The notes below the pieces were generated by a model. That model made no database searches and was not told where the DNA came from. It saw only the letters and a list, made by a program, of their open reading frames with translations. This document shows, one piece after another, positions 2,263-30,404 of a DNA stretch of 42,818 nucleotides (position 1 is the first letter of the stretch; every line of letters begins with the position of its first letter). Origin of the DNA: a virus; IMG/VR virus record IMGVR_UViG_3300023176_001474, positions 1-42,818 of that record, one strand, 5' to 3'. Made by a program: the position numbers and the translations under genes.

Positions 2263-2288
2263 GAACATATGTTCTTTAACGTCAGGTA
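2263..2288 (-). promoter_or_regulatory. Candidate phage-RNAP promoter, copy 1 (17-bp motif)
   Basis: Minus-strand TACCTGACGTTAAAGAA occupies 2288-2272, 4 nt after the stop of the 71 aa gene and about 47 nt upstream of the SSB-like start. A 12-nt palindrome GAACATATGTTC (2263-2274) overlaps its end. The same 17-bp core occurs at 13277, 23474 and 30375. Its layout resembles T7/SP6-class promoters (SP6 TGACACTATAGAAG). The promoter role is inferred. Confidence 0.5.
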
Positions 2289-2292
2289 ATTT

Positions 2293-2508
2293 TTACCCAA
2301 ACGTTTCAATGATAAACCAGCTTTCAGGTTGATCATTCATATACAGTTCTGCATAGGTTTGTTGTTCGGTGCCTGGATTTATTTTCACCTTTAAACAATC
2401 GTTATCTTTGTCGTAGTCAGTAATAAGAACTACTTCTTCTACGTCATCAAAGTAAACAACTGCATACTTATGCAAAAGCGAAATCGGATTCGAGTACATC
2501 GCCGACAT
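2293..2508 (-). CDS. Small hypothetical protein overlapping the RNAP gene
   Basis: 71 aa, acidic, beta-rich (VVYFDDVEEVVLITDYDKD), not recognised. It overlaps the last 41 bases of the T7-like RNA polymerase gene in another frame. The start at 2508 has AGG about 10 nt upstream; an ATG three codons later is an alternative. Its stop lies 4 nt before the candidate promoter for the SSB-like gene, so it is the last cistron of the polymerase transcript. Confidence 0.65.
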   Translation of the reverse strand: MSAMYSNPISLLHKYAVVYFDDVEEVVLITDYDKDNDCLKVKINPGTEQQTYAELYMNDQPESWFIIETFG

Positions 2509-4636
2509 TTAGATTACCTTTCTCTGGTATTAGATCACTTGATTGAAGTTGCCCTAGTATATTTTCTAGAGGCTCGGCTTCGTAGAGTTCTACGAATTTC
2601 TTTCTAACATGATAAAACATTTTGTCCATATTACCTGCATGAGACCCGAAAGAGTCATGCACAACAGTAACAGGATAGTCTGCATCATGTATACACATTG
2701 TTAGATGAACAGCATCAAGACTATGAACTACATTAGGTGCAGCACCAGTCTTCTGCTTAGTCTCATTAACAGTAGTTTCTTCCCATACCTGTAGCTGTAC
2801 TTTAAGTATGTCATCGCCATATTTAAGCTCAGTACGTTTGGTAGTAGGCTTACGATAAGCCTGTACTACAGGAAAGCCTGTTATTGGTGAAATCCAGTTC
2901 ATATGCTCTTTTCTTTTGTTAGCTCTTTCGGCTACAGTTTGGAAGAGTCTTAGCATCTTAGCTGGACCTCTAAGTTCTTCATAACAGGTATTATATACCA
3001 GAGAGCCAAGGAGAGCACCCCAGAGGTGTTCTTTGTCTCTCAAGTAGGGTGATATATCACGAGTGTCTTCTATTACCTGTTGGCCCATACCGTAAGACGT
3101 ACCGCCGTAACCCAGTGTCATAACATTACGCTTGACAGTCTTACGTTGGATTTTCTTGTCTTGGATATTGTGCCAATAGACTGCAAAGAGTTTTTCTCGT
3201 AGATCACGGTTCTTGTTGCGCCATGATTGTGCTTCTTGAAAAGCTAAAGCTTTACGCTCAGACTTGTCAGGGGCATTTTCATAAGTGCGCTGCAGGTTAA
3301 CAGCTGTATCAAAAGTCTCTTGAAACTTGTTAATAGTTTCTTGATCTAGCTTTTCAACTTGTTTACCTAGTCGTTCCCAAACCTTTTCGGCAATAAACAT
3401 ATAGACATCACCTGGAAGTTTACTTGGTACTAAGTTAACAAGAGGTGCAACCTCGTCATCTTGAGACATAGCTACTAGATGTTGAACACCATTATTAGAA
3501 CCGTCAATATATATGGGTAAACAAGAAGGAAACTCAGAGACATCATTTCCTTTTCTTATCCAATCATGTATAAGATACAGTTCATAACAAGCTGCTAGAA
3601 AGCTAAAAGGCTTATCTGCGTTCATCCATATCGTATTAGATAAAGGATCTTCTACATAATCAAGGATATGATGTATGTTATCAGTTACCCATTGAACACG
3701 ATCATCGAGGCTAACTTTATCATTACCCCAAACGTTTGCAGTATGTACACATAACCAGTAATAGCCAACATCACCTAGTGGTACTGCCTCATCTAGCATT
3801 AAGATGCCCTTGGCATTGTCGCTAGACTGCTCGTGTAAGAACGCAGTATTAGGGTAAATACGACCTCGGAAGTCAAGGTTATACAGATGATAGAAAGGTT
3901 TATCACTGTGCTTCTCTGCAAGCCTCTGTATAGCTTCAGCTTCAATGATTAACGAAGCCCGTTTAATAGGATCAATCTCTTTAGTAAACTTAAAGGGATT
4001 TTTTTCGTTAGTCATACACTTTTTATACACATCAAATACAAAGTTGTTTATTCGCCAACCTGTATTATTAAGCTTGTTTAGTGTTTCTATAACATAAGAC
4101 ATGTCATGATTTTCATAGTACTTCAGAGCATCCTCATAACCTTTCTTAATTACGCTAATACCTGTATCTTCATGATAAGAGTCTTGAGACCAAGGTTTAG
4201 CAGGGGTGTTTACAGGAAACATATCACACTTTTCTGTATCTACTAAGTCCATAAGCTCTTTAATAGCTTGCCAGTCTTTAGCATGTAAGAAATAAGATCT
4301 ATGTTTATCTTTTTTACCATTACGATAAGTGTGCTTTTTACGATAGTCAAGAATACCTAGCTCGATATAACTAATTATAACAAACCAACCCCCTTGAACA
4401 TCAAGAACACTATTTTGTTTCTGTCTTAGCTTTTGTCTAAGACGTCTACCTATGCTGCTTGCTACTTCTACAAGTGTTGCTTTCCTTTCTAGGCCTTTTA
4501 ATACATGAGCATAAGAAAACTCAATAATATCTCTTGCACTCATTTTAGATAAGAAACTTGCAGCTTGTCTCTTGTCTAGTATTGATTGTCTGTACTCTAG
4601 ATCTTCTACTAATTTATCTAGAATATTTATTTTCAT
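2468..4636 (-). CDS. T7-like single-subunit DNA-directed RNA polymerase
   Basis: 722 aa, shorter than T7 RNAP (883 aa), mostly in the N-terminal region. The catalytic core is complete: LDFRGRIYP (255-261), motif A IDGSNNGVQH with D378, motif B RKTVKRNVMTLGYGG with R498, K502, Y510 and G511, PNVVHSLDAVHL near 634-645, and motif C VVHDSFG with H660/D661. It ends in DFAFA like T7 RNAP. It should transcribe later phage genes from its own promoters; the repeated 17-bp motif is a candidate target. AAAGGAAA precedes the ATG. A 15-nt inverted repeat (4661-4675) lies 25 nt upstream of the start. This is separate from the MuF-fused polymerase at 16995-21359. Confidence 0.97.
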   Translation of the reverse strand: MKINILDKLVEDLEYRQSILDKRQAASFLSKMSARDIIEFSYAHVLKGLERKATLVEVASSIGRRLRQKLRQKQNSVLDVQGGWFVIISYIELGILDYRKKHTYRNGKKDKHRSYFLHAKDWQAIKELMDLVDTEKCDMFPVNTPAKPWSQDSYHEDTGISVIKKGYEDALKYYENHDMSYVIETLNKLNNTGWRINNFVFDVYKKCMTNEKNPFKFTKEIDPIKRASLIIEAEAIQRLAEKHSDKPFYHLYNLDFRGRIYPNTAFLHEQSSDNAKGILMLDEAVPLGDVGYYWLCVHTANVWGNDKVSLDDRVQWVTDNIHHILDYVEDPLSNTIWMNADKPFSFLAACYELYLIHDWIRKGNDVSEFPSCLPIYIDGSNNGVQHLVAMSQDDEVAPLVNLVPSKLPGDVYMFIAEKVWERLGKQVEKLDQETINKFQETFDTAVNLQRTYENAPDKSERKALAFQEAQSWRNKNRDLREKLFAVYWHNIQDKKIQRKTVKRNVMTLGYGGTSYGMGQQVIEDTRDISPYLRDKEHLWGALLGSLVYNTCYEELRGPAKMLRLFQTVAERANKRKEHMNWISPITGFPVVQAYRKPTTKRTELKYGDDILKVQLQVWEETTVNETKQKTGAAPNVVHSLDAVHLTMCIHDADYPVTVVHDSFGSHAGNMDKMFYHVRKKFVELYEAEPLENILGQLQSSDLIPEKGNLNVGDVLESDFAFA

Positions 4637-6059: not shown

Positions 6060-6109
6060 CACTTGGTGATACATAGTATCATTATAGATGCAATAATTTT
6101 CTCACTTTA
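6060..6109 (-). promoter_or_regulatory. Repeated TATAATG element, copy A
   Basis: Minus-strand order: AAGTGAGAAAATT, a 4-nt spacer, GCATCTATAATG, then hairpin GATAC-TAT-GTATC (6080-6068), then CCAAGTGG. It shares this layout with copies at 7296-7353 and 7548-7602 and, without the hairpin, 7955-7986. It contains a perfect -10-like TATAAT and lies just upstream of the 42-aa gene. Candidate promoter; the polymerase is not known. Confidence 0.5.
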
Positions 6110-7295: not shown

Positions 7296-7353
7296 CCACT
7301 TGGTTGATTGTGATACTATGTATCATTATAGATGCCCCAAAAATCTCACTTTT
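7296..7353 (-). promoter_or_regulatory. Repeated TATAATG element, copy B
   Basis: Same order as copy A: AAAAAGTGAGA, GCATCTATAATG, hairpin GATAC-ATA-GTATC (7324-7312), then CCAAGTGG. The loop is inverted relative to copy A while the stem is unchanged. Here CCCAAAAA and TTTTTGGG also form an outer inverted repeat over the GTGAGA box. Located upstream of the 68-aa gene. Confidence 0.5.
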
Positions 7354-7547: not shown

Positions 7548-7602
7548 CACTTGCGTTGATACTATTGTATCATTATAGATGCGTTAATTTTCTCACTTTT
7601 TT
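7548..7602 (-). promoter_or_regulatory. Repeated TATAATG element, copy C
   Basis: AAAAAGTGAGAAAATT, GCATCTATAATG, hairpin GATAC-AATA-GTATC (7571-7558; 4-nt loop), then GCAAGTGC. Upstream of the 50-aa membrane protein gene and just after the terminator of the HNH gene, so a promoter here would be needed to express the downstream genes. Confidence 0.55.
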
Positions 7603-7623: not shown

Positions 7624-7645
7624 GGGAACCCCCGAAGGGATTCCC
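7624..7645 (-). terminator. UUCG-loop terminator after HNH gene
   Basis: Minus-strand GGGAATCCC-TTCG-GGGGTTCCC (9-bp stem with G-U pairs) followed by AATTTTATC. It lies 5 nt after the HNH endonuclease gene stop. Confidence 0.8.
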
Positions 7646-7650
7646 TGTAG

Positions 7651-7956
7651 TTATTTTTTACGAGTCCACGATTTACGATTTTTATTATTTTGTGACCGTG
7701 TTGTAGTACGTAAATTTTTTGGTTTGTTATTGGATCTATTACGATCACGATGATCAATAAATCCATTGGTTTTTTTACCAGTAGTCATTTCTTTGACAAT
7801 ACGATGTACATACACTGCTTTGCCATCAATACGAACTGTTTTGTAGCCGTCTCCATGATTAGTACCTGCAAGAGACCCCGCAGCTTGACGACCACGAGAC
7901 TCTTTCCAGTATAGCTGACCATTTTTGAGCTTGAAGAGATTTTTCCATTTCTTCAT
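7651..7956 (-). CDS. HNH homing endonuclease-like protein
   Basis: 101 aa. The C-terminal half has the HNH_3 layout: VHRIVKEM with H51, GFIDHRDRNRSNN with D68/H69, NLRTTTRSQNNKNR with N81 and N90. The N-terminal part (NLFKLKNGQLYWKES) is the short beta region common in free-standing phage HNH endonucleases, which nick or cut DNA and spread by homing. It is a one-gene unit between the tape measure gene and a strong terminator. Its ATG is part of a TATAATG element copy, with TTGGAG 9 nt before it. It may have been inserted here as a mobile element. Confidence 0.85.
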   Translation of the reverse strand: MKKWKNLFKLKNGQLYWKESRGRQAAGSLAGTNHGDGYKTVRIDGKAVYVHRIVKEMTTGKKTNGFIDHRDRNRSNNKPKNLRTTTRSQNNKNRKSWTRKK

Positions 7957-7986
7957 TATAGATGCTCCAATTTCCTCAGTTTTTTA
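7955..7986 (-). promoter_or_regulatory. Repeated TATAATG element, copy D (no hairpin)
   Basis: AAAAACTGAGGAAATTGGAGCATCTATAATGA matches the upstream half of copies A-C but lacks the GATAC/GTATC hairpin; its ATG is the HNH start codon. It overlaps the end of the tape measure gene's 3' flank. Candidate promoter or translation-start cassette. Confidence 0.4.
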
Positions 7987-7993
7987 TACGGGC

Positions 7994-10900
7994 TTAGCGA
8001 TATTTGTAGTTGCGTTCTTTGTTTTGTGCGTTAACACCACTAGCAATAGTTGGCAGCATTTTAACAATTTCTTGTCTTGTTTGCCGTGATACGTCACCTG
8101 TAATGGAAAGATTAACTACTGTATTAGATTTACCTTGATTATTCATAAATCTATCTACTTTATTAGCAGGTACAACTAGTTCTCCTGGAGTTAGCATTGC
8201 TGGAACGCTATCTACTCCTACACGAGAGTAAGGTGTATTAGGCACAATACCGCCTGAATTAAATGGTAAGAAAGGAATACTTCCTAGTACAGAACTAAGA
8301 TCAAAGTTTTTAAATAGAGTTCCGATAGATCCAATAATTTTACCAATAAATCCATCTTTACCAAAAATACCTTTAGTAAAGTCAATTATACCTTTAAACC
8401 CAACACCACCTTTAGATTCTGATTCTGCTGATTTTAAACCTTCTTCTAGCTTTTTACCTGTTTCCTCGGTAATTCCTTCACCTAGTTTAAACAAAGAATT
8501 AAAGAATTCTGTTAGACCACCGCCTTCGGCAGTTAGTCCTTTAAACAAAGCATCAGTAAACCCTGTAACAACAGCATCAATTACAGACATAGTAAACTTA
8601 TCTAATAGTAGTTTGCCAAAGTCTTTAAAATCACCTGTAGAAATTGCTTGTACAAGACCATCTTTAAAAGCTTGTGCAAAATCAGTAGCTGTCTTTTTAC
8701 CTAAAGATTCTCCGTCAGATTTCTTAGGAGGGGAAATTGTAGAACCATCAGCCGTTGTTATAGTGCCAGAACCAGTAATTGAGGCTATTCTTGCATAAAC
8801 AGAATCAAGCCCTTGTTGTGCGGCGTCTCTTTGTCTAACTGCTGCACTAATGCCTGTATTACTTCCTGTCTGTTTATTGTAATCAAACTTCCTTTTAGCA
8901 TCTGCAATAGCTTCTAAAAATAGCTGTTCATCTGCTCGTAAACCTTCTAACTGAACTTTTTGCCAATCACTAAGTTGAGCCGTACCCCCCATAAAACCAA
9001 GAGGTTTAATTCCTGAGTTTAGTGCAGCAAAGAATCCTGTTCCAAACTTAGATACAGCAGAGGCTTGAATAACAAATTCTCCATTAGAAAGCATAGCAGG
9101 AATTTGATCATCTTTAGGCCCACCTGGACCTCGTATATAGCCGCCTGAGGCATAACCACTCGATTCAAGGAAATTAATAAATCTTTTTAATAGACTATTT
9201 TCTGAGGCAGTTCCTCCTACTTTATTATTAGAAAAAGTTCCTCCGATCTCACCAGCAGCTGTTCCAGATTCTCCAAAGGGATTTAAATTTGAAAAGAAGC
9301 TAGTGATATTATCTTTAAATCTATCCCAGCCTGAGATTAAACCATCATAGATAGCATTGCCTATATCTACAACCCAAGCGTCAATATCTGCAACGCTGGC
9401 TGTTAAGGCAGCAACAATAGAACCAAGAATACCGCCAACAATAGCGCCACCGATAGCACCAAAAGGACCAAATAAAAGGCCTACAGCAGCACCAACACCG
9501 CCGCCTTCTATTGCACCGAGTAGTAATGCTTTATCTACCTTGCCGACACTTTCATCAAGAAGGCCTTCAACACCACTAGAAATACTATCTGCAATACCAA
9601 CCACTAGGAGTCCCGAAAAAAGACCTCTTATGAGTGCGCTACCGATTGCAATACCAGAGGCGGTTGCTTTGTCTAATATTTTCTTATCATCTTTAATATC
9701 TATTAAAGTTCCGCTTAACTTAGTACCAAGAGCACCAACGGTAAAGCGAGCACCAATAGCTGTTAAAATAGTTTTAACAATCCAAGCACCTGTGCCAATA
9801 ACTCCGTTTCTAAGTATACCTACAGCAGTAGCTCCAGCAACTGCAAGAGCAAAAGCGCCTCCAAGCTTTTCAGTCATTGGGCCAATGTCAATATCTAAGC
9901 CTTCTGCTAAACCTGCTCCAAATTCTCCTGCTGCATCAATAATAGCATTAATTAGTCTAGTACCAAAACCTTCTTGTCCTGCGTCATCTTTAAAGAAGTT
10001 AATAACTCCATCACCAATTGCACGACCAATATCTTTAGTTGTAACCCCAAATATACCCTTTTCATTTAAAAATGATAAAGCTTGTGGCAAAAAGGCAACT
10101 GCAGCAATACCAAGAGTTATCGGTGCAGTAATAATGCTAAGGAATCCTGCTGCAATCACATAACCTAAACCAAATAAAGCACCCTGAATTGCAGAATTTC
10201 TTAGTTCATTTGGCAAAGCTATTACAACTGCACCTGCAAAGGCGGCTCCTGCCGCTAACCACTTGTTTCTATCTGCAAAACCACCTTCTCTTAAAAATCC
10301 ACCTTCGCCTAACAGTCCACCTACTCTATCCTCTTTTCCATTTTCTTGAGCAAATTCAGGAATTGGAGTACCTTTAATAAATTTATCAATACTTCTACCT
10401 AAATCATTAGAAAACTTATTAGAAACTTCTGAGAGTCTTTGACTAAGTTTTGTTAAATAGCCTAGAATACCCCCATTAGCCGCAATATCATCGGTGAATA
10501 GCTTAAATGTTTCCTGGAAGGCAGATTTTTTTGTAATAAAGAAGTTCATACTCTCTTTAAAAGAATCTGACTCAGTTACTGCATTTTTAATTGCAGAAGA
10601 AAAATCATTAATGGCCTTTATTGCTGTATAAAAGAAACTTGCAATACCGCCGCTACGTCTGCTCTCTCTACCCTTTTCGTTAAAGGGATTTACTTCTTCA
10701 TACCCTAAAAAGATATTTTTAAATTCATCAACAAACTTACGACCCCAAACTTTAACTTCTCCTAATACACCTGTTAAAAGTTGTACGTAGTACCCGCTAC
10801 CAATAGCATATTCGCCTTCGTCAAATATTTTACGCCACCATGAATTACCAATGATTGCGTCATACATATTCTTAAATACTAAAATTACTGAATTTTTCCA

Positions 10901-11962
10901 AGCTTCTAAAGTATTTAATACGTACGATACATTCTTAATAGAGTTTTCAAGATTAATAACAGGTATAGATTTGAAGAAGTCTAAATTTTTTATTCCTTCA
11001 TAAGCTTTTGAAAATCTTTCTCTAAAGGCTTCAGGGTCAAAGTCAAATTGGAATAAACTTAATAAAGCTTTCTTTACATCTTCAACAACAAAAGCAACAT
11101 CATAGGCAAATTTGTAAAATACAATTTGAGCCTTAGATATTTGAATTACTGCATTGTCTGCAATGTAACTAAACGCTGTAGTTAATAATTCAATTTTACC
11201 TGCAGTACTGCCTGAGAAATCAAAGACTTTATCAATTTCAGACAAGGCACGAGTAAACTCGCCCTTCATAATCTCAGTTAGTTCATTTACTGTTGGTGTT
11301 AAAAGCTCAAACTCATCACGAATTTTAGGGAGTTGCTTTAATAAAGAGTCTGCAAGAATATCTGATGTAATTTGACCATCAAAGGCCATCTCTCGAAGTT
11401 CTGCACGACTAACACCTAATGCTTGTGTAAGAGCACTTAAAATTTCAGGTGCGCCTTCTGAAACAGAGTTAAATTCTTCACCACGAAGAACCCCAGAGGC
11501 AAACGCCTGACTAAGTTGAAACAAAGCTGCTTGTTGAGTTGCTAAAGGCTGTCCACCAATTTTAGTAGCCTTATTGATAGCTTCTGTAATTTTTAAAAAA
11601 TCACCACTAGTTCTATTTGTACCTTGAAAAGATCTTGCAAGTCTTTGATAGTTAGTAGCAGTAGTTGTAATACCAGTTCTAGACTCAATTGCAAGTCTAT
11701 TAAGTCTTAGCATTGTTGCAGAGACTGGCTCTCCTTCTTTGGCAACAAGTTTTAATCTGTTTTCTAGCAACTTAAAGCTGTCAGCTGCTTGAACAATACC
11801 TTTAACAGTTACAAACCCTGAATAAGTAGCAATTGCGCCTTTAATTGCAGTTGCTAAGCTTTGTGTTGCCTTTTCTATATTACCAACTGATTGTTCAACT
11901 TTTTTAAGTTCAGAACGAGCCTGTTGGGAGTTCGCACGAACTCTAATTGTTACACCACTCAT
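7994..11962 (-). CDS. Tail tape measure protein
   Basis: 1322 aa. The N-terminal region (SQQARSELKKVEQSV...; ASGVLRGEEFNSVSEGAPEI; LREMAFDGQITSDILADSL) matches the phage tape-measure domain. Long glycine/alanine-rich hydrophobic stretches in the middle (about 570-860) are typical of segments inserted in the host membrane during DNA entry. The C-terminal part has repeated FxSGGIVP...VPAMLTPGELVVPANKV-type motifs seen in tape measure proteins. It sets tail length and is ejected at infection. It follows the tail-assembly chaperone genes as in lambda. GGAGG precedes the ATG, and a strong hairpin (11984-12023) lies just upstream of the gene. Confidence 0.95.
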   Translation of the reverse strand: MSGVTIRVRANSQQARSELKKVEQSVGNIEKATQSLATAIKGAIATYSGFVTVKGIVQAADSFKLLENRLKLVAKEGEPVSATMLRLNRLAIESRTGITTTATNYQRLARSFQGTNRTSGDFLKITEAINKATKIGGQPLATQQAALFQLSQAFASGVLRGEEFNSVSEGAPEILSALTQALGVSRAELREMAFDGQITSDILADSLLKQLPKIRDEFELLTPTVNELTEIMKGEFTRALSEIDKVFDFSGSTAGKIELLTTAFSYIADNAVIQISKAQIVFYKFAYDVAFVVEDVKKALLSLFQFDFDPEAFRERFSKAYEGIKNLDFFKSIPVINLENSIKNVSYVLNTLEAWKNSVILVFKNMYDAIIGNSWWRKIFDEGEYAIGSGYYVQLLTGVLGEVKVWGRKFVDEFKNIFLGYEEVNPFNEKGRESRRSGGIASFFYTAIKAINDFSSAIKNAVTESDSFKESMNFFITKKSAFQETFKLFTDDIAANGGILGYLTKLSQRLSEVSNKFSNDLGRSIDKFIKGTPIPEFAQENGKEDRVGGLLGEGGFLREGGFADRNKWLAAGAAFAGAVVIALPNELRNSAIQGALFGLGYVIAAGFLSIITAPITLGIAAVAFLPQALSFLNEKGIFGVTTKDIGRAIGDGVINFFKDDAGQEGFGTRLINAIIDAAGEFGAGLAEGLDIDIGPMTEKLGGAFALAVAGATAVGILRNGVIGTGAWIVKTILTAIGARFTVGALGTKLSGTLIDIKDDKKILDKATASGIAIGSALIRGLFSGLLVVGIADSISSGVEGLLDESVGKVDKALLLGAIEGGGVGAAVGLLFGPFGAIGGAIVGGILGSIVAALTASVADIDAWVVDIGNAIYDGLISGWDRFKDNITSFFSNLNPFGESGTAAGEIGGTFSNNKVGGTASENSLLKRFINFLESSGYASGGYIRGPGGPKDDQIPAMLSNGEFVIQASAVSKFGTGFFAALNSGIKPLGFMGGTAQLSDWQKVQLEGLRADEQLFLEAIADAKRKFDYNKQTGSNTGISAAVRQRDAAQQGLDSVYARIASITGSGTITTADGSTISPPKKSDGESLGKKTATDFAQAFKDGLVQAISTGDFKDFGKLLLDKFTMSVIDAVVTGFTDALFKGLTAEGGGLTEFFNSLFKLGEGITEETGKKLEEGLKSAESESKGGVGFKGIIDFTKGIFGKDGFIGKIIGSIGTLFKNFDLSSVLGSIPFLPFNSGGIVPNTPYSRVGVDSVPAMLTPGELVVPANKVDRFMNNQGKSNTVVNLSITGDVSRQTRQEIVKMLPTIASGVNAQNKERNYKYR

Positions 11963-13276: not shown

Positions 13277-13293
13277 TTCTTTAACGTCAGCTA
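13277..13293 (-). promoter_or_regulatory. Candidate phage-RNAP promoter, copy 2 (17-bp motif)
   Basis: Minus-strand TAGCTGACGTTAAAGAA differs from the consensus TACCTGACGTTWAAGAA at one position. It directly abuts the stop codon of the tail tube gene and is followed by GGAGGC, the start of the 13255-13276 hairpin. Confidence 0.5.
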
Positions 13294-13821
13294 TTAAGAA
13301 GCCGCTACTGTCGCAGGACCAAAGAAATCTGATTGCGCTGACAAAGTAACAGTTGCTGTTGTAGCATCTGTCAATGCAGGGTTAACCAAAATAGCTTCGA
13401 TTTTACCTTTGAAGTAGAATTCTGTGTTGTTTGCAGCAATTGTTGAGGCAATTGAATCTGCCAAAGACAATGATGATGCGCACATCAAGAAACGGAAATA
13501 CACTTCAGTACCGATTAGGTTGTGGAAGTCTTCCATATCTGAGGCAACATAGTTTACTGTTACTTCTAGAGTAGGAGCATCCGCTTGACCTTGGATCTGG
13601 GAGGATGTGTTTTGTCCATAAACTGGTACGTTTACAATGTTTGCAGGAGTACCAATTGAAGGGAATTCACGCACAGAAGGCATACGACTAATGTCTGCTG
13701 AATTAGCAGTATCAAAGAGTGCAGCATACCCTGAAGCAGTCTCTGACGCAGGATTCGTAGAGCCGCTATAAATGTCTAGGTAGGAAAAAATTCCTGCGCC
13801 TAGTGATGAAATATGAGCCAT
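13294..13821 (-). CDS. Major tail (tube) protein
   Basis: 175 aa, beta-rich with low charge. Features include LEVTVNYVASDMEDFHNLIGTEVYFRFLM, EFYFKGKIEAILVNP and a C-terminal ATVTLSAQSDFFGPATVAAS, a pattern shared with siphophage tube proteins. Position supports it: after the neck/terminator genes and before the chaperone pair and tape measure. GGAG lies 7-8 nt before the ATG. It polymerises into the tail tube around the tape measure protein. It has its own downstream hairpin, consistent with very high expression. Confidence 0.8.
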   Translation of the reverse strand: MAHISSLGAGIFSYLDIYSGSTNPASETASGYAALFDTANSADISRMPSVREFPSIGTPANIVNVPVYGQNTSSQIQGQADAPTLEVTVNYVASDMEDFHNLIGTEVYFRFLMCASSLSLADSIASTIAANNTEFYFKGKIEAILVNPALTDATTATVTLSAQSDFFGPATVAAS

Positions 13822-15086: not shown

Positions 15087-16202
15087 TTATGAGTGGAAGA
15101 TAGGCAAGATGCCTAGGTTTAGTGCATCCATCTTACGAGTCCATGAAGCAGCCGCACCAAGAGTTGTGTTAGTTGCAAATGCGTTTGTTGCACCTGCCCA
15201 ATCATAACCTTGTGGATGCATTACGAAACCATAACGATACCAAATGTTTGTAGAACCACCACCTGTGTAAGATGCTGCATCACGATCTACTTCTACAGGT
15301 GTAGGAGCTGAAATCGGAGCATAAGCTACAGACTGAGGCTTAATAACAAATGAACACTTAGTTGACTGTGCGTTTACGTCACCTGCAGAAGTTGTTGCAC
15401 GTTGACTTGCACGAGTCATTACTAGACGGAATTTACCACCAAACAGTGTGTTAAACTGTAGGTTGCCATCTGTGATGATTGTTTCATCAACAACGTTAGC
15501 AGCACGCATTTCAGCCATTGTTTCTGGTGAAGTTACTAGATACATGAAATCTGGTTCCATGTCTTTGTATGCCATGCCAATAGCCTTAAATAGACGCTCA
15601 CCACGAGCAGCACCTGTTGCTGTTGAGTCAAACAGTTTACGCTCATCTGAAGAAGAAGTAGCCGCAGTACCAAATACACCATCAGCATTAATGTCAACAA
15701 AGAAACCTGTTGCAGAAGCGTCTGCATCTGTATCAAAGTCAACAATACCGCCGTTACCAGCACCACCTGCATCGCCTAGCGCTGTTTCAGAAGCTGCAAC
15801 ACCTTTTAGAACTTCCATAAGTGCATTGCCTTCGTCATCACCACGTACTTGAGCAAAGTCACGAGCAATCTTTGAAAGACCGTCTTGGCGTGAAATTACT
15901 TCTTGTAGGTTAACTTGCTGTGCGCCGAATGTACGCATTGACTTAACATAGTTAGAGATCTCTGTTGAGATGTCTGTATATGTACCATCAGTTGCACTTG
16001 AAAGAGAAGGCACGTTGATGGTTGGGTTCAATGGTTTGTACCAACGCATCTGACCGATAAATGACTCACCGTCAGTACGAATATCAGCTGAGCCACCAAC
16101 AATATCTGTCGAGTTTAGCTTTTTAGCTGTTGTGTACGCTTCGTCAGCATACGCAGAAATAGCGAGTGCTACGTTCTGAAAATCTGTGTTTGTAATAGCC
16201 AT
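15087..16202 (-). CDS. Major capsid protein
   Basis: 371 aa, starting MAITNTDFQNVALAISAYADEAYTTA. It follows the scaffold gene and precedes the adaptor gene. The protein is neutral and balanced, with alanine/glycine-rich loops (GDAGGAGNGG, GGGSTNIWYRYGFVMHPQGYDW) like HK97-fold coat proteins of about this length. Hundreds of copies form the head shell. AAGGAA precedes the ATG. The family is not recognised by a specific motif, so the call depends on order, length and composition. Confidence 0.85.
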   Translation of the reverse strand: MAITNTDFQNVALAISAYADEAYTTAKKLNSTDIVGGSADIRTDGESFIGQMRWYKPLNPTINVPSLSSATDGTYTDISTEISNYVKSMRTFGAQQVNLQEVISRQDGLSKIARDFAQVRGDDEGNALMEVLKGVAASETALGDAGGAGNGGIVDFDTDADASATGFFVDINADGVFGTAATSSSDERKLFDSTATGAARGERLFKAIGMAYKDMEPDFMYLVTSPETMAEMRAANVVDETIITDGNLQFNTLFGGKFRLVMTRASQRATTSAGDVNAQSTKCSFVIKPQSVAYAPISAPTPVEVDRDAASYTGGGSTNIWYRYGFVMHPQGYDWAGATNAFATNTTLGAAASWTRKMDALNLGILPIFHS

Positions 16203-16234: not shown

Positions 16235-16909
16235 TTAATAATTGAATTGTCCTAGTTGGCCTTTAGCAGCCATTGCTAGTACTTCCTCTGAAGTCATCTC
16301 AGAAAGACTTTTAGTAACATCTGTTTGAGAAGGAGCAGAGGGAGTTGAAGTTCCAGCGCCACTATTGGCTTTAACACGGAACAAAAATGAATTATCTTCA
16401 CTTTTTGAGTAAGAGTCAATAAATTCTTGAATAGAAGAACCAGACTTGTGAACCCATGCACCATTTTCGTTTTGAACAAGTTGCTCAACGATATCACGCT
16501 GTGCCATTTGACGACTACGCTCATTGCGGAACTCTAGTGTAGCTAGTTGTGTGTTCACAACATTATCACGGTTCAGCTTAGTGTTTTCTTCTTCGAACAC
16601 CTTTAGTTTAGCGTTAGCTTCAGCTAGCTTCATTTCAAGAGCTTCTTTAAGTTTTCCTTCGGCTTCTAAACGTTCAATTTCAGCAGCCTTTTGTGCTTGT
16701 TCGACTTCAGCAGCTTTCTTAAGTGCCTCATCTCGCTCTCGAACCATGCGGTCCATGTTTTGCTTCATTTGTTGAAGACGGTCTTGCACCGCTGCCTCAA
16801 TCGGATCTACCTCGTCCGCTTTAGCTTCTGGTGCCTCTGGTTGTTGTTCAGTCTCTTCTTGGACTGTTTCTACTGTTTCTTCTTCAATTACTGTATTTTC
16901 TTCACTCAT
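16235..16909 (-). CDS. Capsid scaffolding protein
   Basis: 224 aa, very acidic N-terminus (EEETVETVQEETEQQPEAPE), then a long coiled coil (about 45-115, AAEVEQAQKAAEIERLEAEGKLKEALEMKL) and a C-terminal region with low-complexity STPSAPSQ before a short helix. This is the classic layout of phage scaffold proteins, which guide coat assembly and are then removed. It lies directly before the major capsid gene. Two small inverted repeats (16922-16959) lie in the leader. No protease gene is seen next to it. Confidence 0.85.
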   Translation of the reverse strand: MSEENTVIEEETVETVQEETEQQPEAPEAKADEVDPIEAAVQDRLQQMKQNMDRMVRERDEALKKAAEVEQAQKAAEIERLEAEGKLKEALEMKLAEANAKLKVFEEENTKLNRDNVVNTQLATLEFRNERSRQMAQRDIVEQLVQNENGAWVHKSGSSIQEFIDSYSKSEDNSFLFRVKANSGAGTSTPSAPSQTDVTKSLSEMTSEEVLAMAAKGQLGQFNY

Positions 16910-16994: not shown

Positions 16995-19900
16995 CTACGG
17001 ACCAATGCCATACCAGTCTTTATTACCCGTTAAGGGTTCTAGTATGTCTTTTCTTGTTATCTTATTTGGCGGGTCAATTAAACCTAACCGTTTAGCTTCA
17101 GCTAAAAGCTCATTATAAGATTTTCTTGAAAGACCTTGTCTACGCATCTCACGTAAGGTCTTTCTAATAGTATCACCTTCAAGAGCATCTGCATAGATGG
17201 TTCTTAAAGCATCTTTCGCACGTCTTGCTTCACTAATATTAGTAAAGAAAGCATCGTGGATAGTTGCAGTTTCAACGTTGTTTTTAAGCCCCCATTGATG
17301 GAACTTTCGTACGATAACAGCGTCATTACTGTGATTTCCGTTAACACCTAATCCAATTCTAGCATCATTTAACGAAGCTTTTCCTAAAAGTTTTCCGTCT
17401 GTTGATGCGTCTTCATAGATGTTTGCAACTCTACGTCCAGTAACAGGATCTTCAAATTCAATACGATCCTGTTCTTTAAAACGATAACGTTGCATCATTA
17501 CTTTACCGTCAAATGTAACCCAAGGAATATCTGTCTTTTGGGTTTCATTAACATAACGTGTTGCTACTTTTTTCCAATAATTGATAAAGTTATCAGTTAC
17601 AGGAGCACGAGCAGACATATTTTTACTCATAATACGAGATATCTCCGAAAAATCTTTTGGAGTAACAATACCTCGTCTTGCATTGCTTATTTCTCTAACA
17701 AAATCACCAACATCAGGGTGAATGTCTTGAGCATCTTTAAGAAGTTTTCTTCCTACAGGTTGTCCTTTATTTATTAAACTTACAAGTTCAGATCTAAAGC
17801 TTTCTAATTCGGCAACAACAGAAGTAGCACCTTCTCTCTTTGCTAGTTTTATTTTACCATCAATAATTCTTAAGTTAGCATTAAGATTATCTTTAGTAAT
17901 AGTTAAAAAGCCTTTATCATCTAAAACCTTAACAAGACCTCTAGAAACATTAGCTGTTTTAGTTGCAGCTCCTGCACCATAGAAACCAACCATGTTTTGA
18001 TACTTGGCAGCTTTTGCTAAATCTTCCCAAGTTAAATTAGAGTCTCTTAAAGCAGGAATTTTTCTAAAGTCTGGATCATTAATAGTGTCCATAGCCACAA
18101 GGTCATATAGTCTATTTTTTTGAGTTGTAGCCAAAACATTACTTGCTTCTGCAATACTTCTATCACCAGTAGATAAACCAATAATCTGAGCACCAGAAGA
18201 ACTAGCGTCATTTTCGATCATTAATTTAGTCTTATAACTTCTTAAAGGTTTACCTGATTTAAGATGTCTTTCAATTCTTGCATACTCTAAGGCCATTCTA
18301 GAAAGTTTAGCAACTTCAGCACCTTCCAACCCTCTCAATAAAGGATGTTCTAAGAATTCTCTCATTCGTCTATCACGTTGAGTCTTAGCCATCATAGTTT
18401 CGCCTAAGTCAATAAGACTTTGCCTGTTTCTTTCAAAAATTGCACGGCGGCCTGCTTGAGTAAGAGCTTCAGTTCCAGGTCCAATTAGAGCACCAATTTG
18501 TACTTTTAACTCATCTAAGGCCTCATCCGTCATATTAACAGCACGACCAGAGTTAAGAAAAGGTCTTACTAGCTCACCACCAGTAGGTGTTAAGTACCCT
18601 CTATGATAAATACGGCCACGAGAGTCTATAAAGGCAGTAGTACGAAAATTCCTACCTCGTTGAGCGTGGTATTTAGCTGTTGCCATGAGGCCATAACCTT
18701 GCTCTCCACGATTAAGTATTTCGTGCCTAAATTCGTTGAGACTGTCATAATATTTTGTGTTGCCTCGGGGATCCCTAAATCTAGCGAGATCGTCCATGAA
18801 TCCAAAAAATTCATCGTCTACTCCGTATTCTACGTTCATAACGTGATTTAATGTTCTTGCCATGTCACGATCAATTTGTTTAGCATCGTAATCTGCAAAC
18901 TTATCTCTAGAAATTAAAGGAAGTCCTGTATCATTACCTCTAGCATCTATATAAGTTTTCTTATTAGCCTTAACATAAAGCCTATCTCTTGCAGAAGTTA
19001 TACCTAACCTTCTAGAAATTGTTACCTTACGTTCTGCTTCTTGAAGCTTAAGTAAGTTTTTATTAACAACAATTACTTCTCTAGAAATCGTATCTCCCCA
19101 ACCACCAGAGGCTCTTCCTGTTTCAACGTCAATAACTCCTCTACGAGTTTTGCCTCTGAATTGAACACGAATATAACCTTGTTGTCTGAAAAACTCTAGT
19201 ATTCTAGAACCTTCAGTATGATGATCTTTAAGCGTATGCTTAGTAAAGGGTATAATATTTTGGAAGTCTTTTGAAAATTGCTTACCAATATTAATAGCAA
19301 GTGTATCATAGTCAGTAGACTGCCCTGATGAAATTAACTTAGAAATTTTAGTTAAACTATCAATTGCCTTTTCATTAAAAATATTATCACTAGGTTTTTT
19401 AGATGCAACTAAGAATTCTCTATCAAGAATACGCCGAATAGCTTCTCGATTACCTGCTATTCTTTGAGTTAGCCAAGAATCTGTAGGTTCTCTGTTATAA
19501 GCTTTTTTGTATGCCTTATAGGCAGCATTAACTTTAGGATATCGTCTAAGAAGATTTTTCTTTAACTTCTCTTTAGTAGGATATTTTTCAGTAAACTTAT
19601 TAAAGTAAAGTCTTAAAGGCGCTCTTCCAGAGATAAATAGTTGTCTTGCAAGTTTTTTACCTTCTGTTCTTCGCCAACCGTCAATAAATCTTTGATCAGC
19701 TAGTTGATCTCTTTGTAAATCAGCAAAGTTATAATACTTACCCATAATTTGTACTTGGGGAGTATCTTTTGACAAATAACTAACAAACATCTCAGAACGT
19801 TTGCGAGAACGTGTATCTAGTAATCTAGAAACGTTTTGAACGGCAAATCTATTTTCTGCTCTAACAACCGCTGCAAAATCTCCCCATGGAATTTTATCTT

Positions 19901-21359
19901 TAGCATAACGCTCAAAAACAACTCTGAGATTTTCTACTACAACTGTTTGTTGATTTAAAGAAATTTTATCATTTAATCCTGCAGTAAAAGATTCAATAAA
20001 TTGTTTTTGATCAGCAGATAAAAGTTTAGAATTACGCATAAAGTCTAAACGCTCTTGATAGAGATTAAAATCAGGATCATAAATATTATTGTTTTTAATT
20101 TCACCTGTTAAAGGATCAGCACTAAAGTTACGCTCATCAAATTCATTTCCAACTCTTCTTCGAGAGGCTTGTTTGCCAACTAGACTAGTACCTTTATAGT
20201 CAGTTAAAGACATTGTTTTACTAAAGTCATCAGAGTCTAATATAAATAATTGTCTTAGGTCATCTTTGTTTTTAGGGTTTCTAATTAAAGATGAAGGTCT
20301 AGTCGCTTGTAGACGAATATCTTGTTCTCTAATCTTTTGTTTAGGGCGATAAACAGCAGTAGCATTTGCAGCCTTAGCCCGTAAAGCTTGTATGCTTAAC
20401 GCTTTACCTTTAGGCGTAATAAATTGTTCTGCTTTTAATTTACCTTGTCTAAACAAGTTTGCAGCATCTTCAGAGCCTAACATTTTACTCTGAATATCCA
20501 TAGACTGTCTTTTTAACCAGTTACCGAAGCTTTCTTTTTTTGGAGGAAGTCCGTTAAGCTCTTGATCACTTTTTACATTTAATTTTGTCTTTTTTAGTCT
20601 AGGGGTTTGCTCACGAAATAATTCCTGTTTGTTTTTAAGTACAGGAGTCATTGAGCTACGACAATTCCAATGTAAAGGTGGTATAAACCTTTTGTCATTT
20701 AGGTCATAAACTTTACCGTTATGATGTGTACAAATAGGGCTTGTACGAGAGTCAAGTATAGCAGTAAACATAAAACCTTTAATTATATCTTCATTGTCTT
20801 CTGCTACTTTTCTTAGTGCTGCTGTTTGAGTAGAAGTTATGGCAGTTCTTGTCAAAGTTTTTGCTTGATATTCTGTTATTTTAGTAGTTTTTAAGACATC
20901 TGCAATAATTTCGTTTGGTGACTTATTGTTTGCTAGTCCAGCTTTAACTTTAGACTGGATTCTAACAAGTTCACCTGCAGAAATATTTTTAACATTATCA
21001 CTAAGACCTTTTGCCCCACGCATAGTAGGGCCAGTTACTTCAGCTAATAACTCTCTTGTCTTAGGTTTATTAACTTTGTAAAAGTCTTTAACTTCTTTGT
21101 AAAGGTTATCGCTATGAAAGTCTAATTGAGAAGTAGAAAATTCTTTAACAGAATTCTTTTTGTGAGAAAGAAGTTCTGTACCAAAGCGACTTACTTCTTT
21201 AGAAACATCATTTCTAATATTTTTTCTAAGCAAGTCTCTTAAATTTTTTCTATGACGTCTTATAATACGTCTATTCTGGATTTGAATTCCTTCTTCATAT
21301 AACCTTACATCTGCCATATGATCTACAATTCGATCATAAATTTTATCGTTGATATTCAT
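16995..21359 (-). CDS. MuF head protein fused to a single-subunit RNA polymerase (predicted virion RNAP)
   Basis: 1454 aa. Residues about 130-240 carry the MuF head-morphogenesis signature: D203-SRTSPIC-THHNGKVY, then PPLHWNCRSS (227-236). Residues about 340-900 are not recognised. The C-terminal part has all core motifs of T7/N4-class RNA polymerases in order: FIDSRGRIYHRGYLTP (910-925, DxRGR), motif A ENDASSSGAQIIGL with D1051, motif B AKYQNMVGFYGAG with K1119, Y1127 and G1128 at T7-like K-to-Y spacing, NGNHSNDAVIVRK (1341-1352), and motif C TIHDAFF with H1368/D1369. Both catalytic aspartates are present, so it should be active. MuF proteins are head components next to the portal, so packaging in the virion and injection with DNA is inferred. 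GGAG lies 7 nt before the ATG; scaffold and capsid genes follow. Confidence 0.9.
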   Translation of the reverse strand: MNINDKIYDRIVDHMADVRLYEEGIQIQNRRIIRRHRKNLRDLLRKNIRNDVSKEVSRFGTELLSHKKNSVKEFSTSQLDFHSDNLYKEVKDFYKVNKPKTRELLAEVTGPTMRGAKGLSDNVKNISAGELVRIQSKVKAGLANNKSPNEIIADVLKTTKITEYQAKTLTRTAITSTQTAALRKVAEDNEDIIKGFMFTAILDSRTSPICTHHNGKVYDLNDKRFIPPLHWNCRSSMTPVLKNKQELFREQTPRLKKTKLNVKSDQELNGLPPKKESFGNWLKRQSMDIQSKMLGSEDAANLFRQGKLKAEQFITPKGKALSIQALRAKAANATAVYRPKQKIREQDIRLQATRPSSLIRNPKNKDDLRQLFILDSDDFSKTMSLTDYKGTSLVGKQASRRRVGNEFDERNFSADPLTGEIKNNNIYDPDFNLYQERLDFMRNSKLLSADQKQFIESFTAGLNDKISLNQQTVVVENLRVVFERYAKDKIPWGDFAAVVRAENRFAVQNVSRLLDTRSRKRSEMFVSYLSKDTPQVQIMGKYYNFADLQRDQLADQRFIDGWRRTEGKKLARQLFISGRAPLRLYFNKFTEKYPTKEKLKKNLLRRYPKVNAAYKAYKKAYNREPTDSWLTQRIAGNREAIRRILDREFLVASKKPSDNIFNEKAIDSLTKISKLISSGQSTDYDTLAINIGKQFSKDFQNIIPFTKHTLKDHHTEGSRILEFFRQQGYIRVQFRGKTRRGVIDVETGRASGGWGDTISREVIVVNKNLLKLQEAERKVTISRRLGITSARDRLYVKANKKTYIDARGNDTGLPLISRDKFADYDAKQIDRDMARTLNHVMNVEYGVDDEFFGFMDDLARFRDPRGNTKYYDSLNEFRHEILNRGEQGYGLMATAKYHAQRGRNFRTTAFIDSRGRIYHRGYLTPTGGELVRPFLNSGRAVNMTDEALDELKVQIGALIGPGTEALTQAGRRAIFERNRQSLIDLGETMMAKTQRDRRMREFLEHPLLRGLEGAEVAKLSRMALEYARIERHLKSGKPLRSYKTKLMIENDASSSGAQIIGLSTGDRSIAEASNVLATTQKNRLYDLVAMDTINDPDFRKIPALRDSNLTWEDLAKAAKYQNMVGFYGAGAATKTANVSRGLVKVLDDKGFLTITKDNLNANLRIIDGKIKLAKREGATSVVAELESFRSELVSLINKGQPVGRKLLKDAQDIHPDVGDFVREISNARRGIVTPKDFSEISRIMSKNMSARAPVTDNFINYWKKVATRYVNETQKTDIPWVTFDGKVMMQRYRFKEQDRIEFEDPVTGRRVANIYEDASTDGKLLGKASLNDARIGLGVNGNHSNDAVIVRKFHQWGLKNNVETATIHDAFFTNISEARRAKDALRTIYADALEGDTIRKTLREMRRQGLSRKSYNELLAEAKRLGLIDPPNKITRKDILEPLTGNKDWYGIGP

Positions 21360-21384: not shown

Positions 21385-22953
21385 TTATTCCTCTATTTGC
21401 ACCTCATCATCTTGAGGTTGATTTGTAAGAGGGTCAGTTTGTATTTCTTCAATGGCATCTTCATCGCTGTAATCAGCAGGTAAGAAATCATTATATTTAG
21501 CAATATTAATAAATGTAGAACGGCTAATAATACCCATTTGATACCATTCCGAAACAAGTCGCATAGCGCCTTCACCACCAACCATGGGAGCAAAGTCATT
21601 AGACATTTGAAATTCTACATTTTCAGCAGTATACATAGAACCATACTTCCAGTTAAGCATAAAAGCAATAACTTCACGAATAGTTGCAGATACTTTTGCA
21701 TTTAAGGTTCCTAGTTGTGCTGTTTGAGAGGCATTACGTATTTCTAAAGCTACACCTGAAGCTGCTTGCTCTGGTGATAGCATACGAATACCCATCTTAG
21801 CCATTTCATTTACAGTAGAGTCAATTGCTTTTTCCATATCTGAAAGTGCAGCAGTAGGTGTTTCAAGTACACTAATAGATTCATCTTTACGTACACGAAG
21901 CCAAGTACCTAAACCTGCATTTACAATTTCTTCAAATTCTTCATCTGTCATATCTGATTGTACAACAGGAGTGTAGGTTGCAGCACCATAAAGTAAATGA
22001 TTACGGCGAGATACCTTATTATAAAGTGCGACTTCTCTGTCAATAAGAGGCATAAGCACTGGCTCTACAGGTTCAAAATGACCATTAAGAGGCCAGGCTG
22101 GAATACGAGAAATTCGCTCACCAAACATAGTTGGATAAACAGTATTAACTTTAGTAAAGCCAATTTCTGTTAAACGATCTTCGTATTCTTGTTTTATATC
22201 ACCGTTAAGAACTTTAATTTCTGTATTTGTGTCTGGATGTTCATAGTAGTCTAGAACAAGTTTACCTGACTCATCAAGATAGTGATCACATACAGTATCA
22301 ATATAGTTAGGGTGCCAAGGATTATCTTCAGGATAGCGCTTGGTTAAATAACGAGTTACCCAACGAGAAAGTGTCTTTTGGCGAGTTACTGGATGTGTAT
22401 CAGTTTGTATATTAATTACGTTTTCAGCTTCAATAAGCACTGGATAAGGTTTGATATTCATACGCTCTTCAGGAGCCATCATATCAAACTGCTGTTCAGT
22501 AAGTTGAGGATAATCTACATAAACCCAAGCTCTTGAGGTTTGAAGCTCTTCCCACAAAGCTGCATCAAGGAAGTTAAATAGAGAACGCCCATCAAGGGTA
22601 AAGTTATTACGAATCCAATCGATAGCATCTTCTGGTAGTTCTTCTGGAAGCTTAATGTGAGAGTCTTTACGAAGCAAAGAACTAATAAGAACTTTACAGT
22701 ATTGTGCTGTAAGTCCAGGAAGTTCTGCCTCTGATCTGTAAAAGTCATATTGACGTTGTGTCATACTAGGAGAAAAAGGAATTAACAAGTTTGAATAGTC
22801 ATGTTCAATAAACTCGTCATGCGCCTTTACATTCTCTTGTCCTTGTAAAACTGCTCTGGATTTTTTCCACAGAGGCTTTAAGGACTGATAACTATCACTA
22901 GGATCGGCTACCGACTTTTTAATAGCCTTTGTTGGTTTAGTTAGCTGTACCAT
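21385..22953 (-). CDS. Portal protein (DUF4055 family)
   Basis: 522 aa. Recognisable stretches are QRQYDFYRSEAELPGLTAQYCKVLISSLLRKD near 66-97, RSLFNFLDAALWEELQTSRAWVYVDYP near 123-149 and the long C-terminal helical part (AIDSTVNEMAKMGIRMLSPEQAASGVALEIRNASQTAQL), as in DUF4055 phage portal-like proteins. The dodecameric portal is the DNA entry and exit channel. Its gene precedes the MuF gene, the standard head-gene pair, and its ATG overlaps the stop of the 47-aa gene (TAATG). AGGAG lies 9 nt upstream. Confidence 0.88.
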   Translation of the reverse strand: MVQLTKPTKAIKKSVADPSDSYQSLKPLWKKSRAVLQGQENVKAHDEFIEHDYSNLLIPFSPSMTQRQYDFYRSEAELPGLTAQYCKVLISSLLRKDSHIKLPEELPEDAIDWIRNNFTLDGRSLFNFLDAALWEELQTSRAWVYVDYPQLTEQQFDMMAPEERMNIKPYPVLIEAENVINIQTDTHPVTRQKTLSRWVTRYLTKRYPEDNPWHPNYIDTVCDHYLDESGKLVLDYYEHPDTNTEIKVLNGDIKQEYEDRLTEIGFTKVNTVYPTMFGERISRIPAWPLNGHFEPVEPVLMPLIDREVALYNKVSRRNHLLYGAATYTPVVQSDMTDEEFEEIVNAGLGTWLRVRKDESISVLETPTAALSDMEKAIDSTVNEMAKMGIRMLSPEQAASGVALEIRNASQTAQLGTLNAKVSATIREVIAFMLNWKYGSMYTAENVEFQMSNDFAPMVGGEGAMRLVSEWYQMGIISRSTFINIAKYNDFLPADYSDEDAIEEIQTDPLTNQPQDDEVQIEE

Positions 22954-23473: not shown

Positions 23474-23490
23474 TTCTTAAACGTCAGGTA
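23474..23490 (-). promoter_or_regulatory. Candidate phage-RNAP promoter, copy 3 (17-bp motif)
   Basis: Minus-strand TACCTGACGTTTAAGAA, 1 nt after the stop codon of the spanin gene and about 90 nt upstream of the first head gene. Well placed to drive the head and neck operon. Confidence 0.55.
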
Positions 23491-23491
23491 T

Positions 23492-24102: not shown

Positions 24103-24555
24103 TCATAGAAGTTCAAAGTGAGGTCCGTCAATAAAAGGTCTACGTCCTTGTGAGCGTCTGAGGTCAATGTAGGCCATCATAGCATCTTCAGAAGATCCTG
24201 GATAGGAACGAATGTCTCCTTCAGACCACGCTGCGCCCCACTTGATTGCTACACCTAGTTCAGTTGCAGCAGCTTTCATAGCGTCACAAAGATCATCGTA
24301 AACATTGAGTTCCCAACAACCTTTTCCATTTACATAGGCCATGAGATCTACTGCACGACCTTCTAGATGTTTTGATTTCATTGTTTGAGACTTACCTGCA
24401 GCAACAAGTTTTTCTTGTTCTTCCACAGTACGAAGTCCGTAAACAACTCCGAAGTCTACCTTAGTTAGTTCAATAGCACGTTTTACAACTGCTACTAAAC
24501 TGGGATCAACGCCCTCTAGTTTTGCTAGAGAGCGCTGGCTTAAACTATATCCCAT
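24103..24555 (-). CDS. M15-family peptidoglycan peptidase (endolysin)
   Basis: 150 aa from the ATG at 24555 (AAGGAG 6-7 nt upstream); a longer in-frame start at 24597 would overlap the previous gene and lacks a site. It has the metal-binding pattern of M15 (VanY/L-alanyl-D-glutamate) peptidases: GLRTVEEQEKL, SKHLEGRAVDL with H63 and D70, and DGPHFEL with H146. Zinc enzymes of this type cut peptide cross-links in the cell wall, as in the T5 endolysin. No signal peptide, so it needs the holin to reach the wall. First gene of the lysis cassette. Confidence 0.9.
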   Translation of the reverse strand: MGYSLSQRSLAKLEGVDPSLVAVVKRAIELTKVDFGVVYGLRTVEEQEKLVAAGKSQTMKSKHLEGRAVDLMAYVNGKGCWELNVYDDLCDAMKAAATELGVAIKWGAAWSEGDIRSYPGSSEDAMMAYIDLRRSQGRRPFIDGPHFELL

Positions 24556-24565
24556 AATATTCTCC

Positions 24566-24766
24566 TTACTCTGGGGCTTCTGGCCAGTTTGGTTCAAGAG
24601 GATTTGTAGTGTTAGCTGGTAAATCTCTTAAAGCCTGTCTGTAGTTAGCCCATTCTTGTTTCTTTTCATCTGTTAAATTGCTGTCCCATAGCATCCGTCT
24701 ATCAGAACTTTGCAACATGTTGTTACGCAGCTTTCTAAACATATTCCAATCAAACTCTGTATACAT
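24566..24766 (-). CDS. Short tail-assembly-chaperone-like protein
   Basis: 66 aa. The RRMLWDSNLTDEKKQEWANYRQALRDLP...PNWPEAP pattern is the conserved core of the phage tail assembly chaperone domain (Phage_tail_APC type), found again at the ends of the proteins at 31115 and 39711. AAGGA precedes the ATG. It lies just after the large tail-tip gene. Likely role: assembly of tip or fibre proteins. Confidence 0.6.
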   Translation of the reverse strand: MYTEFDWNMFRKLRNNMLQSSDRRMLWDSNLTDEKKQEWANYRQALRDLPANTTNPLEPNWPEAPE

Positions 24767-30360: not shown

Positions 30361-30404
30361 CTAGGGGACAGCCCTTCTTAAACGTCAGGTATTCTATCCC
30401 CTAG
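30361..30404 (-). other. Hairpin enclosing promoter-like motif copy 4
   Basis: On the minus strand CTAGGGGATAG (30404-30394) pairs with CTGTCCCCTAG (30371-30361): 11 bp with a single U-G pair that is only possible in minus-strand RNA. The 22-nt loop holds the 17-bp motif (30375-30391). It fills the 70-bp gap after the PhoH gene. No T run follows directly, so a simple terminator is unlikely. Confidence 0.6.
30375..30391 (-). promoter_or_regulatory. Candidate phage-RNAP promoter, copy 4 (17-bp motif)
   Basis: Minus-strand TACCTGACGTTTAAGAA followed by GGG, the preferred start for T7-class polymerases. It is 20 nt after the PhoH stop and about 35 nt upstream of the NlpC-like start, and would drive the tail-tip genes. 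Confidence 0.55.

Follow-up and report, generated by a model that had tools for sequence, protein, structure and literature searches.

A MuF head protein joined to a T7-type RNA polymerase, a predicted virion enzyme of a widespread group of siphophages

The IMG/VR virus record IMGVR_UViG_3300023176_001474, analyzed here over its positions 1 to 42,818 (the window, a stretch of 42,818 nucleotides), harbours one reading frame of 1454 amino acids (aa) in which a MuF head domain is joined to an RNA polymerase (RNAP) of the T7 superfamily. An initial annotation, made from the letters alone, had pointed out this frame and read its product (MuF-RNAP) as a predicted virion RNAP. The frame was borne out, and lies on the minus strand, which had been left unstated. 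The MuF residues (D203 and HWNCRSS, 230-236) and the polymerase residues (DSRGR, D1051, K1119/Y1127/G1128, HSND and H1368/D1369) were found at the numbers given, and the spacing of 8 between lysine and tyrosine in motif B is indeed that of T7 RNAP. The gene and its parts are as follows.

16995..21359, minus strand: MuF-RNAP fusion gene, 1454 aa (reading frame, Pfam and PHROG)
20649..20960, minus strand: MuF domain, residues 134-237 (Pfam PF04233, E-value 1.3e-11; D203, H230, C233, R234 and S235 invariant)
16998..20342, minus strand: modelled polymerase region, residues 340-1454 (AlphaFold pLDDT 81.4, pTM 0.73; T7 RNAP in the PDB, E-value 3e-18)
18612..18626, minus strand: DSRGR motif, residues 912-916 (D912, R914 and R916 invariant in 53 sequences; collinear with T7)
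18207..18209, minus strand: motif A aspartate D1051 (invariant in 53 sequences)
17976..18005, minus strand: motif B, K1119 to Y1127/G1128 (invariant in 53 sequences)
17322..17333, minus strand: HSND, residues 1343-1346 (H, N and D invariant; S in 51 of 53)
17253..17258, minus strand: motif C, H1368/D1369 (invariant in 53 sequences)

Both halves of the fusion protein were recognized above the curated Pfam cut-offs, Phage_Mu_F with 45.7 bits versus 29.6 (E-value 1.3e-11) and RNA_pol (PF00940) with 26.2 bits versus 22 (E-value 4.4e-6). PHROG likewise returned 'head morphogenesis' (1.2e-50) as well as 'RNA polymerase' (phrog_414, 1.3e-23). Neither a protease domain nor an MPTase domain was found in the Pfam and PHROG scans. 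The conserved D and HxxCRS of MuF head proteins are present, as are all motifs of the single-subunit T7-type superfamily (the motif A Asp, the motif B Lys...Tyr-Gly, the motif C His-Asp, DxxGR and HSxD). The window protein was aligned with 52 homologues of ~30-100% identity, giving 51-53 sequences per position. In this alignment D912, R914, R916, D1051, K1119, Y1127, G1128, H1343, N1345, D1346, H1368 and D1369 never vary, nor do D203, H230, C233, R234 and S235 of MuF in the rows covering them. Remote homologues, at 30% identity, passed both Pfam cut-offs independently, for example L135 with 2.4e-15 and 7.7e-12 and L156 with 3e-16 and 8.4e-12. The fusion of a MuF head domain and an RNAP of the T7 superfamily in the window frame is confirmed.

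The fold of residues 340-1454 was predicted with AlphaFold2 from 48 window and locus sequences (pLDDT 81.4, pTM 0.73). A structural match to the palm and fingers of RNAP had been named beforehand as a check, and it came out positive: the top Foldseek matches in the PDB were T7 RNAP (E-value 3e-18, probability 1.00, ~1000 columns), followed by the yeast and human mitochondrial RNAPs. A right-hand fold was found, with TM-scores by target of 0.50-0.60 against T7 RNAP in the PDB. Among predicted viral structures (BFVD) the top match was a 1463-residue protein, 62% identical and of the same length as the protein of the roseophage DSS3_VP1 (see below); T7-type RNAPs ranked next and then, at weaker E-values, several N4-type virion RNAPs (vRNAPs). 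Searched singly with phmmer, the fusion protein gave no matches among PDB sequences. With the family profile the five best matches were all T7 RNA polymerase (E-value ~7e-5), with the motif order collinear. The initial annotation had spoken of a T7/N4-class core. At sequence level the grouping with T7 and mitochondrial RNAPs stands (hhalign of the fusion family versus T7, 7e-10), while a relation to N4 vRNAP was rejected (E-value 0.27 with one sequence, 0.54 with an 8-sequence alignment). Judged by sequence, the enzyme is T7/mitochondrial-like and not N4-vRNAP-like.

A scan with the family alignment confirmed the fusion in at least 543 IMG/VR stretches. Among 50,697 phage records the whole fusion occurred only in DSS3_VP1 (a phage with two records there), DSS3_PM1 and EBPR siphovirus 1. 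The cultured roseophages DSS3_VP1 and DSS3_PM1 encode it at full length (60.8% identity over 100%); that of EBPR siphovirus 1, a partial record, is 30% identical. These records annotate the protein as minor head protein, head morphogenesis or head protein, and the polymerase is unmentioned. The fusion is not an assembly artefact, because it is present at full length in both isolates and in many independent metagenome contigs. An origin from a prophage or host was unsupported: prokaryote genomes, searched with patterns from the alignment only, yielded no confirmed relative, which is in line with lytic phages. The carriers are a widespread, overlooked group of marine and freshwater siphophages. 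No described MuF-RNAP was found in the open-access literature; the paper describing the Naomviridae, to which DSS3_VP1 and DSS3_PM1 belong, lies outside that search and may mention one.

In several relatives the MuF-RNAP gene carries additional elements. Group I introns interrupt it in L113, L121, L126, L130, L132, L152, L155, L158 and L084, with 15 matches above the Rfam cut-off in eight loci and a weaker one in EBPR siphovirus 1. A single locus has up to four of them, and their sites are close to motif B, HSND/motif C or residue 749. In L160 (6339-9536) a probable intein splits the MuF HxxCRSS motif; its first residue is Cys and it ends with Ser-Asn before Cys, the HINT and LAGLIDADG matches being weak. 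In-frame inserts of ~145 aa, without a Pfam match above cut-off, stand right before motif A in L135, L148, L149, L156 and L175 (longer in L175). The close relative L109 (6448-11199) has one of ~119 aa, at residues ~264-383, between the MuF and polymerase regions.

The gene for MuF-RNAP adjoins that for the portal, within a block of head genes, and a second T7-like polymerase (RNAP2), unmentioned in the initial annotation, is encoded further downstream.

21385..22953, minus strand: portal protein, directly upstream of MuF-RNAP (phrog_145, E-value 4.3e-52)
16235..16909, minus strand: head scaffolding protein (phrog_206, E-value 6e-10)
15087..16202, minus strand: major head protein (phrog_247, E-value 2.6e-25)
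7994..11962, minus strand: tape measure protein, with which the late gene block ends (Pfam TMP_3, E-value 4e-50)
2468..4636, minus strand: RNAP2, 722 aa (phrog_414, E-value 2.6e-139; phmmer versus T7 RNAP, E-value 3.8e-63)

Along the coding strand the order is tail fibre genes, PhoH, tail tip J, endolysin, portal, MuF-RNAP, scaffold, major head protein, connector and tail genes, tape measure, small genes and RNAP2. The core gene order is the same in DSS3_VP1 and DSS3_PM1, where MuF-RNAP lies between portal and coat in the order portal, tRNA, MuF-RNAP. Both polymerases were found in all 12 related records of at least 56 kb that were searched; records without RNAP2 are shorter, or partial (EBPR siphovirus 1). 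The window also holds two different endolysin-like genes, at 6107-6574 and 24103-24597, both on the minus strand.

Two families of promoter-like repeats, differently placed, were found in the window. Motif 1 (ATAsCTGACGTTwAAGAA) stands ahead of late genes, among them the block with the MuF-RNAP gene.

30375..30392, minus strand: motif 1 copy (predicted RNAP2 promoter), between PhoH (30411-31094) and the next gene downstream
23474..23491, minus strand: motif 1 copy upstream of the portal/MuF-RNAP gene block
13277..13294, minus strand: motif 1 copy in the tail gene block
2272..2289, minus strand: motif 1 copy with one mismatch, downstream of RNAP2

Three of these coding-strand copies are exact and the fourth has a mismatch; at up to 3 mismatches the window gives 6 matches versus 0.47 expected. 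The DSS3_VP1 version, ATAGGkkrCGTTAAAG, occurs in 15 copies, all on the coding strand, versus 0 in 20 shuffles; in that phage motif 1 is found upstream of PhoH, portal and tail genes. Related versions stand before the portal gene in G001 and recur in the EBPR-like clade, where G004, G007 and G010 have the analogue AACCCGTTAAATTAACCC. From its placement, motif 1 is predicted to be the promoter read by RNAP2.

Motif 2 (AAAAAGTGAGAAAAnnnnnGCATCTATAATG, plus a hairpin) belongs to the region downstream of the tape measure gene.

7953..7979, minus strand: motif 2 copy (predicted early promoter; 0 expected by chance)
7570..7596, minus strand: motif 2 copy, followed by the inverted repeat TGATAC-GTATCA
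7323..7349, minus strand: motif 2 copy, followed by an inverted repeat
6079..6105, minus strand: motif 2 copy, followed by an inverted repeat
7624..7645, minus strand: intrinsic-terminator-like hairpin, just upstream of the copy at 7570-7596

All four window copies lie between the tape measure and RNAP2 genes and are oriented toward RNAP2; none occurred in 100 shuffles. The core of the motif is common to DSS3_VP1, PM1 and G001 despite 30-40% protein divergence. DSS3_VP1 and G001 each keep the window layout with two copies, and a third copy of DSS3_VP1 lies at 67.8 kb. A scan of 2.9 million viral contigs gave motif 2 in 35 stretches, all of which encode relatives of the window phage; on stretches that carry the tape measure or RNAP2 gene, the motif follows the former and precedes the latter. 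The 75 sites aligned have fixed spacing. Part of their conservation reflects how they were chosen, with GTGAG and the core held constant or almost so, and positions outside that choice (for instance the A-run at -19 to -15) are conserved to at least 89%. A stem of at least 5 bp follows the motif at 58 of the 75 sites (3.3 in shuffles) and is missing at the other 17. Stem types (TGATAC, TGATAT, TGATAG and TGAAGA) and loops (3 to 12) vary, as would be expected of a hairpin in nucleic acid more than of an operator bound by protein. Sigma-70-like sites were also considered for the early region and occur there at shuffle level (35 observed versus 38.2). The early-looking region, RNAP2 included, has a promoter-like family that is distinct from motif 1 and is unexplained by any known host factor.

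Taken together, MuF-RNAP is probably a late-made virion RNAP that transcribes the early genes, including that of RNAP2, from motif 2, RNAP2 then serving the middle and late genes. RNAP2 would read the motif 1 promoters, so that MuF-RNAP would be made late, in one block with portal, scaffold and major head protein. Its MuF domain would dock it at the portal, inside the head, and it would go into the next host along with the DNA. There it would transcribe the early genes from the motif 2 promoters, which follow closely on the tape measure gene; RNAP2 would be one early product and would transcribe the middle and late genes afterwards. Late synthesis is probable because the gene is part of the late block and has motif 1 ahead of it. 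A polymerase that is made late but needed early fits carriage in the particle, for which the MuF domain and the portal neighbourhood offer the means. The earlier reading as a virion RNAP is supported, for its virion part indirectly by the position of the gene, by the constant presence of RNAP2 in longer records and by the separate promoter-like family of the early-looking region. We infer packaging, delivery, catalysis, the timing of expression and the pairing of each enzyme with its motif; that of motif 2 with MuF-RNAP would follow from placement.

Several points weigh against this model. A protein of 1454 aa would need to pass through a siphovirus tail. Motif 2 was not found in the EBPR-like G004, G007, G008 and G010, though that clade has MuF-RNAP, and the TATAAT within motif 2 could be a host -10 element. 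A model of the N-terminal 560 residues gave no convincing match with Foldseek in the PDB, only helical-bundle noise. Finally, the TM-scores of the structural alignment with T7 are low (0.4-0.6) and the root-mean-square deviation is large; for the predicted structure such scores mean a common core with a domain placement unlike that of T7.

The perfect TATAAT, with GTGAG upstream at a constant distance, also suits a different division of labour, in which motif 2 is left to host RNAP, aided by an activator from phage or host, and MuF-RNAP, though active and packaged, has another role on entry, such as DNA pull-in or replication priming. This is considered unlikely. None of the 75 aligned sites has a TTGACA-like -35 hexamer, conservation is near-continuous across ~30 bp, motif 2 is confined to phages of the window group, and a scan of 257 gigabases of prokaryotic genomes gave no copy of GTGAGAAAAnnnnnGCATCTATAATG. 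Less probable still is that the RNAP domain acts only in the producing cell as an extra late polymerase, for example after being freed from MuF by proteolysis. The gene does lie in the late block and residues 581-640 are hypervariable, but this variable region is inside the folded polymerase region and not at the junction with MuF, and no protease domain was found in the fusion protein. In addition, RNAP2 already supplies a T7-like enzyme, and the MuF fusion is retained in every full-length homologue seen, from 30 to 100% identity. That the RNAP domain is catalytically dead and serves the head as a structural element, a reading for which motif A could be cited (DAS, versus DGS in T7), is very improbable, as each catalytic residue is invariant in 53 sequences and group I introns recur near motifs B and C, which is typical of elements targeting constrained catalytic sites.

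For the virion RNAP model proposed here precedents exist. N4 had been named as the known example of a virion RNAP, but it is not the sole one: in P23-45 a vRNAP (gp96) is fused to the tape measure protein and has a promoter motif of its own, from which it transcribes pre-early genes, the gene of a second RNAP among them (PMC10770324). By analogy, P23-45 is the closest precedent, with the same logic and unrelated parts. Both phages have a polymerase fused to a siphovirus structural protein (its virion role being predicted in the window phage), a separate non-virion RNAP and two promoter families. Gp96, however, is a two-barrel RNAP related to cellular enzymes, whereas the core of the window enzyme is single-subunit and T7-type, sits on MuF, and the tape measure is a separate gene. 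Where relatives of P23-45 have no fused vRNAP, the corresponding promoter motif is missing as well (PMC10770324). A parallel may be seen in Pelagibacter phage Kolga EXVC016S, where a related MuF protein (L254, 45152-47053) has the polymerase replaced by a peptidase-like C-terminus with a HEFAH metallopeptidase-like motif; a T7-like RNAP is present and motif 2 is absent. At 30% identity this parallel is only suggestive.

With N4 gp50 and RNAPII (PMC4496689) the window phage shares the single-subunit superfamily, a second single-subunit RNAP beside the (here predicted) virion enzyme, and (predicted) hairpin-associated early promoters. It differs from N4 in that its enzyme has no detectable sequence relation to N4 vRNAP, is fused to MuF with no MPTase domain found, and is encoded among siphovirus-type head and tail genes. 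The hairpin of motif 2 also differs from N4 promoters: a long conserved sequence precedes it on the 5' side, and some sites have no hairpin. T7 RNA polymerase (PF00940) is the best PDB match by both sequence and structure, sharing the fold and all core motifs. Unlike T7 RNAP, the window enzyme is fused to a head protein, has a polymerase region ~230 residues longer, a DAS motif A and a YGAG motif B, and its gene lies in the head block. In the sections of the MuF survey that treat such fusions, MuF is a carrier of enzymatic domains with predicted delivery by the particle (Iyer et al. 2017, PMC5512222). RNases, RelA/SpoT, PRTase, kinases and others are listed there with no mention of an RNAP on MuF, and N4-like RNAPs are described as limited to N4-like phages and almost always MPTase-fused (PMC5512222).

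If the proposed model is true, an abundant and overlooked phage group starts infection independently of host RNAP, and two unrelated RNAP lineages, each fused to a different siphovirus structural protein, do the same job. If the enzyme works, a distant T7-type polymerase with a new promoter is gained. The predicted promoters for both enzymes are specified base by base, and the cultured pair of DSS3_VP1 and Ruegeria pomeroyi DSS-3 makes the idea testable now.

In DSS3_VP1 and PM1 thymidine is reportedly replaced by deoxyuridine. The combination of a MuF-tethered T7/mitochondrial-type enzyme, a second T7-type enzyme and two promoter families is, on balance, favoured as a distinct virion-RNAP design, one that may start transcription on such deoxyuridine DNA (if the reports hold) where the host enzyme reads it poorly. 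That unusual DNA and a virion polymerase are linked is put forward as a hypothesis only. The jumbo phage AR9, with uracil-containing DNA, likewise relies on its own polymerases, its non-virion RNAP recognizing deoxyuridine in the template strand of the promoter (PMC9209446). As a separate observation, 1186-1623 of the window (minus strand) gives a weak match to nucleoside 2-deoxyribosyltransferase, of possible interest for base modification.

Another minor observation concerns G004 (C1, 43501-43577; L204), where a 23-bp repeat, ATGATATTATAATGACACTTTGA, is present in four head-to-tail copies in an intergenic position.

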